Made by a program: the position numbers and the translations under genes. The notes under the pieces were generated by a model that saw only the letters and a program-made list of their open reading frames with translations, ran no database searches and was not told where the DNA came from. A stretch of 33,546 nucleotides of DNA from Flavobacteriaceae bacterium (GTDB lineage Bacteria; Bacteroidota; Bacteroidia; Flavobacteriales; Flavobacteriaceae): positions 1-33,546 of the forward strand of contig NZIP01000061.1 in assembly GCA_002691645.1 (NCBI GenBank), given 5' to 3'. Shown in pieces: positions 2,089 through 13,907 of the stretch. Each line of letters starts with the position of its first letter. The first letter of the stretch is position 1.

Positions 2089-3228
2089 CTATTTTAGAAT
2101 ATTTTTTGAAATCACAACTTTTTGGATTTCTGAGGTCCCTTCACCTATGGTACAGAGTTTAGCATCTCTATAGAACTTTTCTACAGGAAAGTCTTTGAGA
2201 TAGCCATAACCACCATGAATTTGTATAGCATCATTTGCTATTTTGACACAACTATCCGAAGCGTATAATTTACAAATGGCTGAATTCAAAGTCATCTTTC
2301 GCTTTTCATTTTTCAAAAAAGCAGCCTTGTGCAATAACAATTCTGCAGCCTCTATTTCTACACACATATCGGCAAGTTTAAAAGAAACCCCTTGAAACTC
2401 GGAAATGGGTTTGCCAAATTGCGTTCTTTCCTTGGCATATTTAAGTGAGGCTTCGTAAGCACCTTTAGATATTCCAAGCGCTAATGCTCCGATTGAAATT
2501 CTTCCTCCATCTAGAATTTTCATAGACTGAATGAACCCATCACCTATTTCTCCTAAAATATTTTCATGAGGTATTCTGCAGTTTTCAAAAATCATTTCGG
2601 CCGTTTCTGAAGCTCTCATACCTAGTTTGTCTTCTTTTTTACCGTGAGTAAAACCAGGAGTTCCTCGTTCTACAACGAAAGCCGACATTCCGTGGGAATC
2701 ACCCTTTTCTCCGGTTCTTGCAATTACTACAGCTATTTCTCCGCTTTTACCATGAGTGATGAAATTTTTTGCTCCGTTGAGAACCCAATAGTCACCGTCT
2801 CTTACAGCTGTCGTGGCCATTCCTCCTGCATCACTACCAGTATTGTGCTCGGTAATTCCCCAAGCGCCAATCCATTCACCAGTAGCCAATTTAGGTAACC
2901 ATCTCTGTCTTTGCTCTTCATTTCCGAATTCATAAATATGATTGGTACAAAGTGAATTATGAGCAGCAATTGATAGACCTATTGACGGATCTATTTTTGT
3001 TATTTCTTCTATGATGGAGATATACTCGTGATAAGATAAACCGGCACCGCCATACATTTCAGGTATTATGATTCCCATAAAGCCATACTCACCTGCCTTA
3101 TGCAACACCTCTTTTGGGAAAAATTGTGTCTCGTCCCAATCTCTAACATTTGGTGCTAAATATTGCTGCGCAAATTGTTTTGCCGATTCAGCTACTAGGC
3201 GTTGAGTTTCAGAATAATCAAAATTCAT
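2089..3228 (-). CDS. Acyl-CoA dehydrogenase (FAD)
   Basis: An acyl-CoA dehydrogenase of about 379 residues. The enzyme introduces a trans-2 double bond into acyl-CoA in fatty-acid or branched-chain amino-acid breakdown and passes electrons to ETF. Family marks seen: GAWGITEHNTGSDAGGM in the middle domain, RTQFGKPISEFQG and IHGGYGYLKDFPVEKFYRDA in the C-terminal helical domain, and GEGTSEIQ with the catalytic Glu near residue 363. I chose MNFDYSETQ (ATG 3228) because the family starts that way; an in-frame ATG at 3252 adds eight residues, and an AAGGAG lies before the 3228 ATG. A TATATTTG box lies upstream. Substrate chain length cannot be told. The gene stands alone, with no beta-oxidation neighbours. 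Confidence 0.9.
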   Translation of the reverse strand: MNFDYSETQRLVAESAKQFAQQYLAPNVRDWDETQFFPKEVLHKAGEYGFMGIIIPEMYGGAGLSYHEYISIIEEITKIDPSIGLSIAAHNSLCTNHIYEFGNEEQRQRWLPKLATGEWIGAWGITEHNTGSDAGGMATTAVRDGDYWVLNGAKNFITHGKSGEIAVVIARTGEKGDSHGMSAFVVERGTPGFTHGKKEDKLGMRASETAEMIFENCRIPHENILGEIGDGFIQSMKILDGGRISIGALALGISKGAYEASLKYAKERTQFGKPISEFQGVSFKLADMCVEIEAAELLLHKAAFLKNEKRKMTLNSAICKLYASDSCVKIANDAIQIHGGYGYLKDFPVEKFYRDAKLCTIGEGTSEIQKVVISKNILK

Positions 3229-6720: not shown

Positions 6721-6741
6721 CAATGCACTTTCAATATGTAC

Positions 6742-6749
6742 TATCTTTG
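6742..6749 (+). promoter_or_regulatory. -7 box of the nitroreductase gene
   Basis: TATCTTTG matches TAnnTTTG fully and lies 13 bases before the chosen ATG at 6763. It supports that start over the upstream ATG at 6736, which precedes the box. The -33 element is not clear. Confidence 0.5.
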
Positions 6750-6762
6750 TCAAAAAAAGACT

Positions 6763-7401
6763 ATGAAAAGTGAAATTCTCGTCTCTCGAGAGTGGAGGTA
6801 CGCGGTCAAAAAGTACGACAAATCGAAAAATATAGAAGTCGAAGAATTAGAGCTCATTTTAAAGGCAATCAACCTGGCTCCAACATCATACGGACTCCAA
6901 CCTTTTAAAGTTATTCATGTTAAGGGAGAGAAGGTAAGAGCTGAGCTGAAAACAGCAGCCTACAATCAAGGCCAAATAACGGATGCTTCAGATTTGTTGG
7001 TTTTCGCACATGCTACTGCTGTTCATCCCTTTATTATTGACCGCTATTTCAATAATCTCATGAGTACAAGGAAGCCAAATATAAAAGAGGTAGAAACGTA
7101 TAAAAACCACGTAACTCAGGCCTTGACAAACTGGCCTGAAGCTCAACAAGCCTCATGGTGTGACAAACAAATGTATATAGGCTTGTCTTACGGTTTACAA
7201 GCTGCCTCAGATTTACGCATTGACAGCTCAGCGATAGAAGGGTTTGATCAAAAACGATTTGCTGAAATTCTAAAAATCAACACCAGCTTGTGGATACCAA
7301 CAGTATCTCTTGCACTAGGGTACAGGAGTAAAAATGACAGTTCTCAACATTTAGCGAAAGTTCGACTAAGTGAGGATGAATTGATTCAAATTTTTGAGTA
7401 A
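6763..7401 (+). CDS. NAD(P)H-dependent nitroreductase family protein (FMN)
   Basis: A protein of about 212 residues of the FMN nitroreductase superfamily, NfsB-like. The N-terminal REWRYAVKKYD and then LAPTSYGLQPFKVIHV are the usual FMN-phosphate and flavin contacts. WCDKQMYIGLSYGLQAASDL in the second half and the late GYRSKND are also family-like. Such enzymes reduce nitroaromatics, quinones or dihydropteridine-type substrates; the natural substrate cannot be told. ATG 6763 is chosen because the TATCTTTG box lies just before it. The gene is divergent from the tlpA-like gene and stands upstream of the trp promoter, whose -33 box lies about 17 bases past the stop codon. No terminator is seen between. 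Confidence 0.85.
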   Translation: MKSEILVSREWRYAVKKYDKSKNIEVEELELILKAINLAPTSYGLQPFKVIHVKGEKVRAELKTAAYNQGQITDASDLLVFAHATAVHPFIIDRYFNNLMSTRKPNIKEVETYKNHVTQALTNWPEAQQASWCDKQMYIGLSYGLQAASDLRIDSSAIEGFDQKRFAEILKINTSLWIPTVSLALGYRSKNDSSQHLAKVRLSEDELIQIFE

Positions 7402-7418: not shown

Positions 7419-7449
7419 TTTGTAGTTAATCAAGATGTTTCTATATTAG
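7419..7449 (+). promoter_or_regulatory. trp operon promoter
   Basis: TTTG (7419-7422), exactly 19 bases, then TATATTAG (7442-7449) fits the Bacteroidota pattern TTTG-N19-TAnnTTTG with two mismatches in the -7 box. Initiation is expected near 7453-7457, at or between the two possible ATGs of the leader peptide. The leader peptide and attenuator directly downstream make this the likely trp promoter. Confidence 0.65.
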
Positions 7450-7451
7450 CA

Positions 7452-7502
7452 ATGAATATGAAAAATTTTAAAAATACTTGGTGGTGGATCGATGCACAAT
7501 AG
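7452..7502 (+). CDS. trpL: trp operon leader peptide
   Basis: A 16-codon reading frame, MNMKNFKNTWWWIDAQ, with three consecutive TGG codons at 7479-7487 and TAG at 7500-7502. Trp is rare, so three in a row in a tiny frame between a promoter and trpE is the hallmark of an attenuation leader. The stop codon sits 1 base before the antiterminator arm (7504-7511), so the position of the ribosome decides which hairpin forms. Translation could also begin at the second ATG (7458). No SD is seen, as usual in this phylum. Confidence 0.88.
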   Translation: MNMKNFKNTWWWIDAQ

Positions 7503-7563
7503 TGTCGTGATCACGTCTTACCATGTATTCAAAAAAGGCTTGTCATCACGACAAGCCTTTTTT
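7503..7563 (+). promoter_or_regulatory. trp transcription attenuator (antiterminator and terminator)
   Basis: GTCGTGAT (7504-7511) is the exact reverse complement of ATCACGAC (7545-7552). The latter forms the loop and the start of the 3' arm of the terminator hairpin, so the two structures exclude each other. If the ribosome stalls on the Trp codons, 7504-7511 stays free and pairs with 7545-7552, which breaks the terminator. If it reaches the stop codon it covers 7504-7511 and the terminator forms. The pairing is seen; the mechanism is inferred from known ribosome-mediated attenuation. Confidence 0.85.
7531..7563 (+). terminator. trp leader terminator hairpin
   Basis: Arms 7531-7544 and 7550-7563 pair without mismatch (core GGCTTGTC/GACAAGCC, with A6 facing T6) around the loop ATCAC. 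The T6 run (7558-7563) completes an intrinsic terminator 19 bases before the trpE ATG. Confidence 0.92.
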
Positions 7564-7582: not shown

Positions 7583-8971
7583 ATGTACAAATTAAAGACC
7601 AACTATAAGAAAATCATATCAGACACTCTTACCCCTGTTAGTATTTATTTAAGGCTAAGAGATAAGTTTCACAATGCCATACTTTTAGAAAGTAGTGATT
7701 ACCATGCCAATGACAATAGTTTTTCATACATCTGCTTTGATCCAATTGCACAATTCAGTGTAATCAACGAAGAAATTAAAATCAACTATCCTGAGGGTGA
7801 AGTAATATCTAAACCTATATTAAATCGAAGCGATGTGCTGATAAGTTTAGATGAGTTTAAAGCACAGTTTGTATCAGAAGATTTAGACTTTAAATTTATT
7901 TATAACGGTCTATTTGGATACATGAATTACGACGCGGTTCGATATTTTGAAGACATTGACATCGATGTGAAGCATTCAGAGATACCGGATGTGTACTACG
8001 CAGCCTACAGGTATATTATCGCAATTGATCACTTCAAAAACGAAGCCTACCTTTTTTCTCATCATCTAAAAGAGGAAGATCGGTTGGATGAGATTGAACA
8101 GATCATAAATTCAGGTATTCAAGGCCAATATAAGTATCACAATGTTGGTCATAACTCAACTACCACTTCAGATGAAGAATTTAAATTACTCGTTGATAAA
8201 GCCAAAGAACACTGCAAAAGAGGAGATGTTTTTCAATTGGTTCTATCGCGAAGATTTTCACAACAATTTAGAGGTGATGAATTCAATGTATACAGGGCAC
8301 TGAGATCAATAAACCCCTCCCCATACTTGTTTTATTTTGACTATGGCAATTTTAAAATTTTTGGTTCTTCGCCAGAAGCTCAGATAATAATAAAGGACGA
8401 TCAAGCTGAAATTCATCCAATAGCAGGCACCTATAAAAGAACCGGTAATGATGAGAAAGATGCCGTATTAGCTAAAGAATTGGCTGAAGATGAAAAAGAA
8501 AACGCTGAGCATGTGATGCTTGTTGATTTGGCTAGAAATGATTTAAGTCGAAATGGACATGCGGTAGAAGTTAAAACCTATAGAGAAGTCCAGTATTTTT
8601 CACATGTCATTCATTTGGTTTCAAAAGTAATAGGCAAAATTAAATCAGGGACATCGAGTTTAAAGATAGTTGCAGATACTTTTCCAGCAGGAACGCTTAG
8701 CGGCGCTCCAAAGCACATGGCTATGAAATTGATTAACAAATATGAATCTATCCCCCGAGGTTATTACGGTGGCGCAATTGGATTTATGGATTTCAAAGGT
8801 AATTTTAACCACGCCATCATGATTCGTACTTTTTTGAGTTATCAACAAAAATTGCATTACCAAGCTGGAGCAGGAATCGTGGCTGCCTCAGATTCCTCCT
8901 CAGAACTTCAAGAAACATATAACAAATTAGGGGCCCTGAACAAGGCTTTAGAAATCGCAGAAAATTTATAA
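7583..8971 (+). CDS. trpE: Anthranilate synthase component I
   Basis: A 462-residue anthranilate synthase large subunit. It makes anthranilate from chorismate with ammonia delivered by TrpG, the committed step to tryptophan. The N-terminal part carries LLESS (residues 34-38), the motif that binds Trp in feedback inhibition, so the enzyme is probably inhibited by Trp. The chorismate-binding domain shows FQLVLSRRFS, GSSPEAQ, PIAGTYKRTG, ELAEDEKENAEHVMLVDLAR and FPAGTLSGAPK. ATG 7583 is chosen: the longer frame from 7523 would start inside the attenuator. It is followed by trpG after 7 bp. The PIAGT and LSGAPK motifs favour anthranilate synthase over aminodeoxychorismate synthase, as does the operon. 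Confidence 0.97.
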   Translation: MYKLKTNYKKIISDTLTPVSIYLRLRDKFHNAILLESSDYHANDNSFSYICFDPIAQFSVINEEIKINYPEGEVISKPILNRSDVLISLDEFKAQFVSEDLDFKFIYNGLFGYMNYDAVRYFEDIDIDVKHSEIPDVYYAAYRYIIAIDHFKNEAYLFSHHLKEEDRLDEIEQIINSGIQGQYKYHNVGHNSTTTSDEEFKLLVDKAKEHCKRGDVFQLVLSRRFSQQFRGDEFNVYRALRSINPSPYLFYFDYGNFKIFGSSPEAQIIIKDDQAEIHPIAGTYKRTGNDEKDAVLAKELAEDEKENAEHVMLVDLARNDLSRNGHAVEVKTYREVQYFSHVIHLVSKVIGKIKSGTSSLKIVADTFPAGTLSGAPKHMAMKLINKYESIPRGYYGGAIGFMDFKGNFNHAIMIRTFLSYQQKLHYQAGAGIVAASDSSSELQETYNKLGALNKALEIAENL

Positions 8972-8978
8972 GCAGGGC

Positions 8979-9545
8979 ATGAAGACCAAAGTAGTTCTTA
9001 TTGACAATTACGATAGTTTCGCTTACAACTTAGTCCATTATCTCAACGAGTTGAACTGTGAGGTTACTGTTTTTAGAAACGACAAATTTAAAATTGAAGA
9101 TCTGGAAGAGTTTGACAAAATTTTACTTTCTCCTGGACCTGGTATACCTGAAGAGGCAGGCTTACTTAAAGAAGTCATTACCCATTACAAAACATCAAAA
9201 TCCATTATGGGTGTTTGTTTGGGTCATCAAGCCATTGCAGAGGTTTTTGGAGGTCAACTAATCAATTTAACTCAAGTGTATCACGGCATTGCATCATCCA
9301 TCTCAATAAAACAAAAGGAAGGTATTTTTCAGGGTCTAGAAGATCGCATTCAAGTGGGAAGATATCACTCTTGGGTGGTAGATCCCGATTCTATTCCTGA
9401 ATTAGAAATCACGGCGGTTGATGACTTAAATTTCGTAATGGCCTTTCGTCATCAAAGCTTAAATATTGTCGGGGTACAATTTCATCCGGAATCTGTTCTC
9501 ACTCCGAGGGGTAAACAAATGTTATCTAACTGGTTATCAATATGA
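8979..9545 (+). CDS. trpG: Anthranilate synthase component II (glutamine amidotransferase)
   Basis: A 188-residue class I glutamine amidotransferase that releases ammonia from glutamine for TrpE. The nucleophile is Cys80 in GVCLGHQAI, with His169 and Glu171 in VQFHPESVLTPRG completing the triad. The oxyanion motif SPGPGIP is at 51-57. It is a stand-alone subunit, not fused to TrpE or TrpD. Its stop codon overlaps the trpD start as ATGA. PabA-type use in folate synthesis is possible in addition, since some bacteria share this subunit. Confidence 0.96.
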   Translation: MKTKVVLIDNYDSFAYNLVHYLNELNCEVTVFRNDKFKIEDLEEFDKILLSPGPGIPEEAGLLKEVITHYKTSKSIMGVCLGHQAIAEVFGGQLINLTQVYHGIASSISIKQKEGIFQGLEDRIQVGRYHSWVVDPDSIPELEITAVDDLNFVMAFRHQSLNIVGVQFHPESVLTPRGKQMLSNWLSI

Positions 9546-10540
9546 AAGAAATATTAAATCAACTAATTAATCACGAATCCTTGACTAAGGAACAAGCCAG
9601 ATCGATATTGATTAATATTGCTTCTGGTACTTATAACTCTCACCAAGTTGCTGCCTTTATGACTGTATATATGATGCGTAGTATTGATGTGCAAGAGCTT
9701 GAAGGATTTAGAGATGCACTACTAGAACTATGTGTTACTGTCCCCTTGGAAGATTACAACCTTATTGATCTCTGTGGTACTGGAGGAGACGGAAAAGACA
9801 CCTTTAATATTTCAACTTTGGCCTCTTTTGTTACAGCAGGAGCTGGAGTTCAAGTAAGTAAACACGGTAATTATGGAGTAAGTTCTAAATGCGGAAGCAG
9901 CAATGTACTTGAATCTTTAGGTGTCACATTTAGCAACGACGGTGACTTTTTAAAAAAATGTGTTGATGAGGCTGGAATCTGTGTTTTACATGCTCCATTA
10001 TTTCATCCTGCAATGAAAAATGTGGCTCCAATACGAAAAGACCTCGGTGTCAAAACTTTTTTTAATATGCTTGGACCAATGGTAAATCCGGCTTTTCCCA
10101 AAAATCAAATGGTTGGGGTTTTCAATTTAGAACTGGCTCGAAAATATGGGTACCTCTATCAAAACACTGATAAATCTTACGCTATTGTGCACGCTTTGGA
10201 CGGTTATGACGAAATTTCATTGACAGGAGGCTCGAAAATCATTACGCCTCAAAATGAATCCATCATCTACCCATCAACATTTGGATTAGATACCGTTGAA
10301 GCCACTGCCATTGTAGGAGGTGAAACCGTAGAAGATTCTGCTGAGATTTTCAGGGCTATTCTCAACGGAAATGGAAGTCAGGCTCAAAATCGAGTTGTTT
10401 GCGCCAATGCAGCAGTCGCAATAGCCACAGCAGAACATTGTAGCCTAAATACAGCATATGAAAAAGCAGAAGAATCCCTATTGGAAAAAAAGGCCCTCAA
10501 TACATTAAAAAAATTACAAGCGCTCAGTGCTGAATTATGA
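9542..10540 (+). CDS. trpD: Anthranilate phosphoribosyltransferase
   Basis: A 332-residue enzyme that joins anthranilate to PRPP to give phosphoribosyl-anthranilate. The class III phosphoribosyltransferase marks are present: GTGGDG at residues 79-84 (PRPP/Mg binding), KHGNYGVSSKCGSSNVLE, and HPAMKNVAPIRKDLGVKTFFN in the middle. Helices at the N-terminus (about 1-65) form the family dimer interface. It overlaps both neighbours by ATGA (trpG before, trpC after), pointing to coupled translation. Confidence 0.97.
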   Translation: MKEILNQLINHESLTKEQARSILINIASGTYNSHQVAAFMTVYMMRSIDVQELEGFRDALLELCVTVPLEDYNLIDLCGTGGDGKDTFNISTLASFVTAGAGVQVSKHGNYGVSSKCGSSNVLESLGVTFSNDGDFLKKCVDEAGICVLHAPLFHPAMKNVAPIRKDLGVKTFFNMLGPMVNPAFPKNQMVGVFNLELARKYGYLYQNTDKSYAIVHALDGYDEISLTGGSKIITPQNESIIYPSTFGLDTVEATAIVGGETVEDSAEIFRAILNGNGSQAQNRVVCANAAVAIATAEHCSLNTAYEKAEESLLEKKALNTLKKLQALSAEL

Positions 10541-11316
10541 ATATTTTAGAACGAATAACGCAGACGAAGAAAGCAGAGGTCCAAGCGAAAAAAAGCTTGG
10601 TGAGTAGCTCGATTTTAGAGCAATCGCCACTGTATAATAGATCGACTCTTAGTGTTGCTAAGGCGCTTAAAAACTCCTCCTCTGGGATAATTGCCGAGCA
10701 CAAAAGAAGGTCGCCGTCTAAAGCTGTGATCAATCAATCTCATCAACTGTTAAATGTGATAAATGCCTACCAAGAAAATGGAGCTACGGCGATTTCAGTT
10801 TTAACCGATACCAATTATTTCGGAGGCTCCTTAGAGGATTTATTTTTAACCAGAAGTGCTGCCTCAATTCCCCTACTGCGCAAAGACTTTGTAATTGACT
10901 CTTATCAAATAACCGAAGCTAAGGCGTTTGGTGCAGACTTCATTCTGCTTATCGCTAGTATTTTAGAAAAAGCCCAAATTCAAGAATTCACTGCTTTCGC
11001 CCATGAATTAAATTTAGAGGTACTTCTTGAAGTACACAGTTTAGAAGAACTAGAAGCTTCTTATACAGAGGATATTGATGTAGTCGGGGTAAACAACAGA
11101 AATTTGAAGACCTTTGAAGTTGACCTCAACACTTCATTTGATATCGCGACAGCCTTAGATTCTGAAAAAGTGAAAATTTCGGAGAGTGGACTCAGTGATA
11201 CGCAATCGATTAAAAACTTGAAAAAGGCAGGCTACAATGGTTTTTTAATTGGAGAAACACTCATGAAAAACGATAAGCCTGGTGAAGTCCTAAAACAACT
11301 TATTGAACAAAGCTAA
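10537..11316 (+). CDS. trpC: Indole-3-glycerol phosphate synthase
   Basis: A 259-residue TIM-barrel enzyme that closes the indole ring on CdRP, losing CO2 and water. Seen: AEHKRRSPSKA (catalytic Lys and phosphate contact, about residues 53-63), LLRKDFVIDSYQI, VLLEVHSLEEL, VVGVNNRNLKTFEVD and ISESGLSDTQ, all strand-end motifs of the family in order. It is monofunctional, unlike the TrpC-TrpF fusion of enteric bacteria; trpF follows at once, its ATG sharing one base with the trpC TAA. Confidence 0.97.
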   Translation: MNILERITQTKKAEVQAKKSLVSSSILEQSPLYNRSTLSVAKALKNSSSGIIAEHKRRSPSKAVINQSHQLLNVINAYQENGATAISVLTDTNYFGGSLEDLFLTRSAASIPLLRKDFVIDSYQITEAKAFGADFILLIASILEKAQIQEFTAFAHELNLEVLLEVHSLEELEASYTEDIDVVGVNNRNLKTFEVDLNTSFDIATALDSEKVKISESGLSDTQSIKNLKKAGYNGFLIGETLMKNDKPGEVLKQLIEQS

Positions 11317-11951
11317 TGAGACAAGTCGAGCTTAAAATATGTGGTATGAAAAATAATGTGCAGCAAGTGGCTGCCCTTGAACCCGACTACTTAGGCTTTA
11401 TATTTTGGGAGTCTTCTAGCAGATTTTACGATTTACCACTTATTGAAAACCTGAATCAAAACATAAAAAAAGTGGGGGTATTCGTAGATGCTGATCACGA
11501 TTTTATTTATCAAACCGCAATGAACTATCAGTTGGATTACCTTCAATTACACGGTAACGAATCAACCGACTACCTCAATGAGCTTCAGGCTAAAATCCCT
11601 GAAAATCTAAGACTTATAAAGGCCTTTGCGGTAGACAACGATTTTGATTTTGGTCGTCTAAAACCCTACGAACCGCTTTGTGACTATTTCTTGTTCGACA
11701 CCAAGGGAAAACTCCCTGGCGGTAATGGAACACAATTTGACTGGAGTATTTTGAAATCTTATACTTCCAAACACCCCTTTTTTCTAAGTGGTGGAATTGG
11801 ATTATCCTCTCTAAATGCGATAGAGGAATTTTTAAATTCAGTACAATCAACCTACTGCTGCGCCATAGATGTCAACAGTAAATTCGAAAAAGAAAAAGGG
11901 ACAAAAAACACAACACAATTGAAACAATTTAAAGAACAGTTAATCACTTAA
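11316..11951 (+). CDS. trpF: Phosphoribosylanthranilate isomerase
   Basis: A 211-residue TIM-barrel isomerase turning PRA into CdRP, the step before TrpC. LKICGMKN at the N-terminus carries the catalytic Cys; FVDADHDFI, LQLHGNES, LFDTKGKLPGGNGTQFDW with the general acid Asp, and FFLSGGIGLSSLNA follow, ending with IDVNSKFEKEKGTKN. The start follows the trpC stop directly. Four bases separate it from trpB. Confidence 0.96.
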   Translation: MRQVELKICGMKNNVQQVAALEPDYLGFIFWESSSRFYDLPLIENLNQNIKKVGVFVDADHDFIYQTAMNYQLDYLQLHGNESTDYLNELQAKIPENLRLIKAFAVDNDFDFGRLKPYEPLCDYFLFDTKGKLPGGNGTQFDWSILKSYTSKHPFFLSGGIGLSSLNAIEEFLNSVQSTYCCAIDVNSKFEKEKGTKNTTQLKQFKEQLIT

Positions 11952-11955
11952 TATT

Positions 11956-13140
11956 ATGTCGAAATACCTCGCAGATGAAAATGGATACTACGGAGCATTT
12001 GGTGGAGCATTTATTCCGGAGATGCTTTATCCAAACACCGAAGAATTAAGAGTTAATTATCTCGAAATAATGGAGCGCGATTCTTTTCAAAAAGAATTCA
12101 AGTACTTGCTGAAAGACTACGTTGGAAGGCCTACTCCTTTGTATTACGCTCAAAGATTATCCGATACCTATGGCACTAAAATATATTTAAAACGAGAAGA
12201 TTTATGTCACACTGGAGCGCATAAGGTCAATAATACCATTGGACAAATCTTAATGGCAAAAGCTCTCGGCAAGAAAAGAATCATTGCTGAAACAGGTGCA
12301 GGTCAACACGGAGTAGCTACTGCCACTGTATGTGCCCTTATGGGAATTGAATGCGTGATTTATATGGGTGAAATTGATATTTCAAGACAGGCACCTAATG
12401 TCGCACGCATGAAACTTTTAGGAGCAACCGTAAGAGATGCAACATCGGGTAGTAAAACGTTGAAAGACGCTACAAACGAAGCCATACGTGATTGGATTAA
12501 CAATCCGGTTGACACGCATTACATTATCGGGTCTGTGGTTGGACCTCACCCCTATCCTGATATGGTTGCGCGATTTCAATCGGTCATCTCAGAAGAGACT
12601 AAGAAACAACTCCTTGAAAAAGAAGGAACCGAGAATCCTACTCATGTAATCGCCTGTGTAGGCGGAGGAAGTAATGCAGCAGGGCAATTTTACCATTACC
12701 TCGATCGAGAAGAGGTGAATATAATAGCAGTAGAAGCTGCTGGTAAAGGTGTACACAGCGGCGAGAGTGCAGCCACCTCAGCTTTAGGAAAAGTTGGAAT
12801 TATTCACGGTAGTAAAACACTTTTAATGCAAACCGTTGATGGACAAATAACAGAACCATACTCCATCTCTGCTGGATTAGATTATCCAGGAATCGGACCA
12901 ATGCACGCCCATCTTTACAGCAGTAAACGCGCTCAATTTGTTTCTATTACAGATGCCGAGGCGATGGCCGCAGGTAAGCGACTCTCTGAATTGGAGGGAA
13001 TCATTCCAGCTATAGAAACCGCACATGCATTTGCCGTTCTTGAACATCAAAAATTCCAAAGCGATGACATTATCGTCTTTAACTGTTCGGGACGAGGAGA
13101 TAAAGATTTACAAACCTATATAGACTACTTCGAATTATGA
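11956..13140 (+). CDS. trpB: Tryptophan synthase beta chain
   Basis: A 394-residue PLP enzyme that condenses indole and serine to tryptophan. The PLP lysine is Lys90 in CHTGAHKVNN. AETGAGQHGVATATV follows with the catalytic Glu112 and the substrate-carboxylate loop. GGGSNAAGQF binds the PLP phosphate, and the C-terminal FNCSGRGDKD is usual. Length and N-terminus (YGAFGGAFIPE) are those of the TrpB1 type that works with TrpA, which is encoded directly after with an ATGA overlap. Confidence 0.98.
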   Translation: MSKYLADENGYYGAFGGAFIPEMLYPNTEELRVNYLEIMERDSFQKEFKYLLKDYVGRPTPLYYAQRLSDTYGTKIYLKREDLCHTGAHKVNNTIGQILMAKALGKKRIIAETGAGQHGVATATVCALMGIECVIYMGEIDISRQAPNVARMKLLGATVRDATSGSKTLKDATNEAIRDWINNPVDTHYIIGSVVGPHPYPDMVARFQSVISEETKKQLLEKEGTENPTHVIACVGGGSNAAGQFYHYLDREEVNIIAVEAAGKGVHSGESAATSALGKVGIIHGSKTLLMQTVDGQITEPYSISAGLDYPGIGPMHAHLYSSKRAQFVSITDAEAMAAGKRLSELEGIIPAIETAHAFAVLEHQKFQSDDIIVFNCSGRGDKDLQTYIDYFEL

Positions 13141-13907
13141 GCAAAAGAATCAGTGAACTGTTCGATACAGATAAAAAATTAGTATCCATTTATTTCACAG
13201 CAGGGTTTCCAAAATTAAACGACACGGTTAAAATCATCGAAAAGCTAGAAAAATCTGGAGTAGACCTTGTAGAAATTGGACTTCCATTTTCTGATCCTTT
13301 GGCCGATGGACCAACGATTCAAGAGAGCTCAACTAAGGCACTTCATAATGGTATTACAACAGAACTATTATTTGAACAGTTGTTTAACATTAGACAAAAG
13401 GTTAAAATCCCCCTCATTATTATGGGTTATTTCAATCCTGTCATGCAATTCGGAGTTGAAGCTTTTTGTCAACAATGCGAGGATATAGGAATTGATGCGC
13501 TTATTCTTCCAGACTTGCCCCTTCGTGAATATCAACTGCATTACAAAGAAATCTTCAATCGCCACGGATTGGATCTCATTTATTTAATCACACCTCAGAC
13601 CCCAGAAGAACGCATCCGAGCAATTGACCAAATGAGTAACTCCTTTATTTATATGGTTAGCTCATCATCAACTACTGGAGCAAAGGCAGGTTTTAGTGAA
13701 GAAAATCAAGAATATTTCAAGCGAGTTGAAGAAATGAAACTCAAAAATCCTACACTGGTAGGTTTTGGGATTAGTGACAAAAACAGTTTTGATCAGGCTA
13801 CATCCCATAGCCAAGGGGCTATTATTGGATCTGCCTTTATCAAGCATATTGAAAATAAAGGGATTGACCAAATTCCATCCTTTGTTCTAAATTTAAGGCA
13901 TGAATAA
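13137..13907 (+). CDS. trpA: Tryptophan synthase alpha chain
   Basis: A 256-residue TIM-barrel subunit that cleaves indole-3-glycerol phosphate and channels indole to TrpB. Both catalytic acids are in place: Glu46 (LVEIGLPFSDP) and Asp57 (LADGPTIQ). The flexible loop is seen as VSSSSTTGAK, and the phosphate site as GFGISDK and IIGSAFIKHIE. It overlaps trpB by ATGA and overlaps the next small gene by 8 bases, so the transcript very likely continues past the trp genes. Confidence 0.97.
   Translation: MSKRISELFDTDKKLVSIYFTAGFPKLNDTVKIIEKLEKSGVDLVEIGLPFSDPLADGPTIQESSTKALHNGITTELLFEQLFNIRQKVKIPLIIMGYFNPVMQFGVEAFCQQCEDIGIDALILPDLPLREYQLHYKEIFNRHGLDLIYLITPQTPEERIRAIDQMSNSFIYMVSSSSTTGAKAGFSEENQEYFKRVEEMKLKNPTLVGFGISDKNSFDQATSHSQGAIIGSAFIKHIENKGIDQIPSFVLNLRHE

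Follow-up and report, generated by a model that had tools for sequence, protein, structure and literature searches.

How is the trp operon in this stretch of Flavobacteriaceae DNA controlled, and which alternative RNA structures are involved? The window, i.e. the whole stretch of 33,546 nucleotides that was analysed, contains a complete trpEGDCFBA operon, and directly upstream of it, on the same strand, a short frame with adjacent Trp codons precedes a hairpin. A first-pass annotation had interpreted this arrangement as a ribosome-mediated trp attenuator with a minimal two-state RNA switch, and the elements it relied on (the TGG TGG TGG leader, an arm at 7504-7511, its complement at 7545-7552 and a perfect hairpin at 7531-7563) are correct in all letters and coordinates. 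We computed the sequence parts of the element, their conservation, the family membership, the covariation of arm and loop, and the predicted folds of three states. The element is very probably a classical ribosome-mediated trp transcription attenuator that belongs to the Rfam family RF01692 and controls trpEGDCFBA. Its features are as follows.

7438-7544, + strand: hit of the Rfam model RF01692 (Bacteroid-trp), scoring 49.7 bits at a gathering score of 49
7442-7449, + strand: presumed Bacteroidota -7 promoter box TATATTAG (consensus TAnnTTTG), from sequence and relatives
7458-7502, + strand: most likely leader peptide gene, 14 codons, MKNFKNTWWWIDAQ and stop; start from the sister-genome ATG and the presumed +1
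7479-7487, + strand: three TGG Trp codons, the sensing codons, from sequence and relatives
7473-7529, + strand: 1:2 hairpin (protector/pause-type), predicted to bury the Trp codons and the antiterminator arm without a ribosome; MFE -18.2 kcal/mol, z -2.3, RF01692 consensus
7503-7511, + strand: antiterminator 5' arm TGTCGTGAT, immediately 3' of the leader stop; sequence, covariation with its partner
7545-7553, + strand: antiterminator 3' partner ATCACGACA, comprising the terminator loop (7545-7549) and the first four nucleotides of the 3' arm; sequence, covariation, swap test
7503-7553, + strand: complete 2:3 antiterminator hairpin, with the terminator 5' arm inside; -15.0 kcal/mol, z -3.45, predicted with a ribosome stalled on the Trp codons
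7531-7563, + strand: intrinsic terminator hairpin (3:4), 14 bp, loop ATCAC; -18.3 kcal/mol, z -7.5
7583-8971, + strand: trpE (anthranilate synthase component I), the first regulated gene; TIGR00564 is the best NCBIfam match, below its curated cut-off
8979-13907, + strand: trpG, trpD, trpC, trpF, trpB and trpA, the rest of the operon

Leader peptide and family membership

The ATG at 7452 opens the frame MNMKNFKNTWWWIDAQ, which is closed by the TAG at 7500-7502, and the first-pass annotation had counted a leader of 16 codons from there. Frame and stop hold, but the start probably lies at 7458, resulting in 14 codons. We prefer this start because the single leader ATG of two sister genomes (L053 and L054) aligns with 7458, and because the presumed promoter box sets the transcription start. 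The flavobacterial -7 box occupies -12 to -5 (PMC9723704), so that a box at 7442-7449 would place +1 near 7454, with the ATG at 7452 at or before it. TAnnTTTG or TAnnTTAG is found just 5' of the leader ATG in most relatives, and the distance from the end of the box to the ATG has a sharp mode of 5 nt (35 of 120 relatives) besides another one at 17-18 nt. If transcription starts about 5 nt past the presumed box, the trp leaders of many relatives would be leaderless or nearly so.

The run of Trp codons recurs in the relatives, as the first-pass annotation had expected: those listed carry two or three adjacent Trp codons, and each of the 79 named trpE loci for which upstream sequence exists (L115-L193) has a Trp-rich leader. 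At one locus (L220, genome G090) the leader is very short, with only eight residues (MNFWWNTY), followed by a terminator and trpE.

Among regulatory RNA families, RF01692 alone exceeds its cut-off in the window, and the match is the only one in the genome. The score exceeds the cut-off only just, the leader measuring 107 nt against 131 model positions. All features of the family are present, namely the score, a Bacteroidota host, a position upstream of trp genes, a frame with UGG repeats and the 1:2 hairpin, in which the alignment to the model marks two non-standard positions. This match and the trp operon downstream bear out the assignment of a ribosome-mediated trp attenuator to a member of the Bacteroidota (Flavobacteriaceae). 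The element is, however, not new to the phylum, in which the first-pass annotation had called attenuation less studied than in Proteobacteria: Bacteroid-trp RNA was described in 2010 by Weinberg et al. (PMC2864571), and the main text of a later paper notes it before the trp operon of F. psychrophilum (PMC6414381). In addition, the main text of the F. psychrophilum transcriptome study (PMC9723704) gives strong indications of attenuation by leader peptides ahead of amino-acid operons.

The last letters of the RF01692 model, AAAAAAGGCUUGUC, end at position 7544 of the window, in the 5' arm of the terminator, and the model therefore holds neither the full terminator nor the pairing of arm and loop. 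It matches in 63 of 148 relatives, 80 of 396 genomes of the order and 27 of 395 of the class, these samples overlapping. A Trp-rich leader and a terminator are also present in all 19 inspected trpE loci without an Rfam match (L208-L226), the closest of which belong to the same genus and the most distant to other families within the order. The antiterminator half would allow a better search model, since the current one misses these loci.

Predicted folds of the three states

The arms of the terminator (7531-7544 and 7550-7563) form 14 perfect pairs, with a GC-containing core at 7537-7544/7550-7557 and a run of six U at 7558-7563. A consensus terminator scan gave no match because the U run pairs with an A run. 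The sequence GTCGTGAT at 7504-7511 is the exact complement of ATCACGAC at 7545-7552, and the pairing extends to 9 bp (7503-7511/7545-7553). Both sequences at a spacing of 28 to 40 nt occur at one site in the whole 2.48-Mb genome, the reverse match being the same site. None of 200 shuffles was as stable as the terminator (z -7.5) or, in a separate set of 200, as the antiterminator segment 7503-7553 (z -3.5). We also considered an H-type pseudoknot of the antiterminator and the lower terminator stem and rejected it by reasoning only, the linker at 7553/7554 having 0 nt and that between 7541 and 7545 just 3 nt.

Folding with and without ribosome constraints, which the first-pass annotation had proposed as a check, gave three distinct predictions. 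Without a ribosome the RNA forms the 1:2 hairpin and the terminator, with the Trp codons in the 5' strand of the 1:2 hairpin and the arm 7503-7511 towards the top of the same hairpin. When the nucleotides up to 7495 were blocked, mimicking a ribosome on the Trp codons, and the RNA ended at 7553, the antiterminator 7503-7553 was obtained (-15.2 kcal/mol), taking up the terminator 5' arm via an inner helix. When the nucleotides up to 7514 were blocked, corresponding to a ribosome at the stop codon, the terminator was the sole structure. The antiterminator and the intrinsic terminator are thus mutually exclusive, as they share nucleotides and replace each other in the constrained folds, and both helices covary.

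For the complete RNA the fold in the starved state favours the terminator, which has an advantage of about 5 kcal/mol over the antiterminator. Antitermination must therefore win kinetically, as it must in E. coli according to the same calculation, and equilibrium folding by itself is no demonstration of antitermination. Since the antiterminator requires position 7553 and the U run ends just 10 nt later, little time is left for its formation.

The same states were predicted in the relatives. The antiterminator formed in the stalled state in 83 of 97, the terminator formed in the rich state in 96 of 97, and in the state without a ribosome most of the arm was paired with other leader nucleotides, again in 96 of 97. 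When the middle segments were shuffled as a control, nucleotides of the loop or 3' arm were engaged from upstream in only 101 of 970 cases.

Covariation of the arm and the terminator loop

We aligned 98 sequences with MAFFT without using structure. RNAalifold identified only the terminator in this alignment and no other helix, probably because the gapped middle hides the others, and the helices were therefore tested singly. The terminator is paired in 99.3% of the cells, with changes on both sides in eight of its nine pairs. A 7-bp helix of arm and loop is paired in 88% of the cells, as compared to at most 52% for slid versions, and 17 cells are changed on both sides versus 3.9 in shuffles (0/500), where cells are sequences rather than events and related rows inflate the counts. 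Because the terminator stem also occupies columns of three of the seven pairs, the four pairs involving only the loop were tested apart. These are paired in 93% of the cells, with 11 cells changed on both sides versus 1.6 in shuffles (0/500); the double changes mainly replace G-C by A-U, at the pair where either TGA or TAA serves as the leader stop.

A swap test, which is less exposed to inflation by related rows than the cell counts, was carried out with 42 divergent leaders. The duplex of the segment following the Trp codons with the loop region of the same leader had a mean energy of -9.1 kcal/mol, as compared to -6.5 kcal/mol after swapping (z -8.6, 0/20,000 permutations), and for the 32 leaders whose loops lack TCAC the result was similar (z -7.4, 0/20,000). 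Covariation between 7504-7511 and 7545-7552, which the first-pass annotation had named as a check, is thus present both in the 98-sequence alignment and among the 42 leaders. Examples of arm and loop pairs are GTCGCAAT/ATTGCGAC (L043), GAGAAGC/GCTTCTC (L221, L223) and GCGATGA/TCATCGC (L209, L214), and at four loci of the same genus (L208, L210-L212) the register of the pairing is shifted towards the 5' arm and the loop. Overall, 158 of 176 family elements have a helix of at least 6 bp between the segment after the Trp codons and the terminator loop or 3' arm that includes at least three loop nucleotides.

Two further arrangements were observed among the relatives. In the leader MINNVVNNNWWWCYTTKSWW of L226 (G111) the segment complementary to the loop consists of the final two Trp codons together with the stop codon (AGTTGGTGG with GCACCAGC). 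Two members of the same genus carry two tandem trp leaders and two terminator hairpins before trpE, with the leaders MQKINTIWWWQSKL and MLNNKINNWWWPVLTQYAGQSCYNII in L062 (102-358, G089) and MITINKIWWWQSKL and MINSKLNNWWWPVLTQYVGQSRYKNI in L222 (G104). The second tandem leaders of L062 and L222 differ in a compensatory manner in arm and loop, TGCGG/CCGCA versus TGTGGG/CCCACA.

Mechanism and comparison with known systems

Where the ribosome stands, how the element responds to Trp and when transcription terminates in the cell is inferred as follows. In the presence of charged tRNA-Trp the ribosome would pass the three Trp codons and reach the stop codon at 7500-7502, where its footprint would cover 7503-7511, so that the terminator 7531-7563 could fold and RNA polymerase would stop before trpE. 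If charged tRNA-Trp is scarce, the ribosome would stall on 7479-7487 and open the 1:2 hairpin at 7473-7529. The arm 7503-7511, now free, would pair with the terminator loop and the top of the 3' arm (7545-7553), the inner helix would take in the terminator 5' arm, and transcription would go on into trpE. Without translation the arm would be hidden by the 1:2 hairpin, making termination the default.

Three other explanations were weighed against this classical attenuation. The hairpin might simply terminate the gene upstream (6736-7401), the Trp-rich frame and the complementarity having arisen by chance; this gene lies on the same strand and ends 50 nt 5' of position 7452, and the hairpin is strong (-18.3 kcal/mol). 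Leader, arm, loop and terminator are, however, kept jointly upstream of trpE in the Flavobacteriaceae and beyond, and arm and loop covary, so that conservation and covariation already refute this exceedingly improbable reading. In other phyla trp operons are regulated by T-boxes or TRAP, which would allow for another Trp-sensing RNA mechanism here, i.e. a T-box, TRAP binding or translational control of trpE. Yet no T-box or other regulatory family except RF01692 reaches its cut-off within the window, the conserved parts are accounted for by a Trp-codon leader and a terminator, and this terminator lies about 20 nt 5' of the trpE start and ends in a U run, which renders such a mechanism very unlikely.

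The two-state switch of the first-pass annotation, in which there is no separate pause hairpin and the terminating ribosome alone masks the antiterminator arm, fares only slightly better, and we consider it improbable. The arm at 7504-7511 begins 1 nt past the stop codon, within reach of a ribosome located there, and in 57 of 97 relatives the leader stop codon is even part of the motif TCGTGA itself. The 1:2 hairpin 7473-7529 is, however, predicted as the ground state and forms the core of what RF01692 models, and the arm is protected without a ribosome in 96 of 97 relatives. The position of the arm next to the stop codon had been regarded as a departure from the enteric design, but the antiterminator arm of E. 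coli trpL, ACGGGC, also starts 2-3 nt after the leader stop, so that a stop-adjacent arm is not special.

The classical mechanism is further supported by the likeness to E. coli trpL (L194), which has Trp codons, 1:2, 2:3 and 3:4 helices and the same three states in an identical calculation. The energies are nearly equal, with -15.6 kcal/mol for the antiterminator of E. coli and -15.2 kcal/mol for that of the window, and -20.3 versus -21.0 kcal/mol for the full starved fold. Differences are the number of Trp codons (three in the window, two in E. coli) and the point at which the antiterminator is completed: in E. coli, where the partner is the terminator 5' arm, 20 nt still separate this point from the end of the U run, whereas in the window it lies at 7553, with only 10 nt to go, because the outer helix reaches into the loop and the 3' arm. 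Bacteroid-trp RF01692 resembles the element in phylum, location before trp genes, Trp-codon leader and 1:2 hairpin, and differs in that its model lacks the complete terminator and the antiterminator pairing of arm and loop. The leader-peptide attenuators of F. psychrophilum (PMC9723704, PMC6414381) come from the same bacterial family and are the same class of element before amino-acid operons; the main texts of these papers report presence and expression, but not the antiterminator pairing.

The comparison confirms classical ribosome-mediated attenuation as the normal control of the trp operon in Flavobacteriaceae, and the analysis supplies the antiterminator half that is absent from the public family model. 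As an object the element is a member of a known family, to which we add a covariation-backed antiterminator, the loop-seeking geometry and a corrected leader start. A description of the arm/loop pairing was not found in openly accessible papers, the subscription literature and the 2010 supplement lying outside this search. What may be new is modest, namely an outer antiterminator helix that targets the terminator loop and the adjoining stem and is completed about 10 nt later than in E. coli. As targeting the loop entails late completion, the balance of read-through and termination becomes a kinetic question. Tentatively, a loop-seeking design, with a stop-adjacent arm that complements the terminator loop and the adjoining stem, might be common to trp attenuators in the Flavobacteriales and in some other Bacteroidia. 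Antitermination would then be settled within the final ~10 nt ahead of the release site, and arm and loop would be free to evolve together in sequence, register and stop codon, beyond the Rfam model; we regard this generalization as a serious possibility, while stopping a little short of favouring it.

The surroundings of the element vary among the relatives. The TrpE proteins nearest to that of the window (92-97% identity) come from metagenome assemblies (MAGs) of Flavobacteriaceae or Flavobacteriales. In five Flagellimonas/Allomuricauda/Muricauda loci (L116, L118, L129, L137, L147) the leader is located about 0.5 kb upstream of trpE with an inserted frame in between, so that the switch would control the inserted gene, too. 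This frame (about 2503-3000, ~96 aa) resembles GIY-YIG proteins, and in L116 (2669-2959) a part of 57 aa matches Pfam PF01541 with an E-value of 0.006, below the cut-off. Finally, four clustered tRNA genes are located on the minus strand at positions 21-398 of the window.
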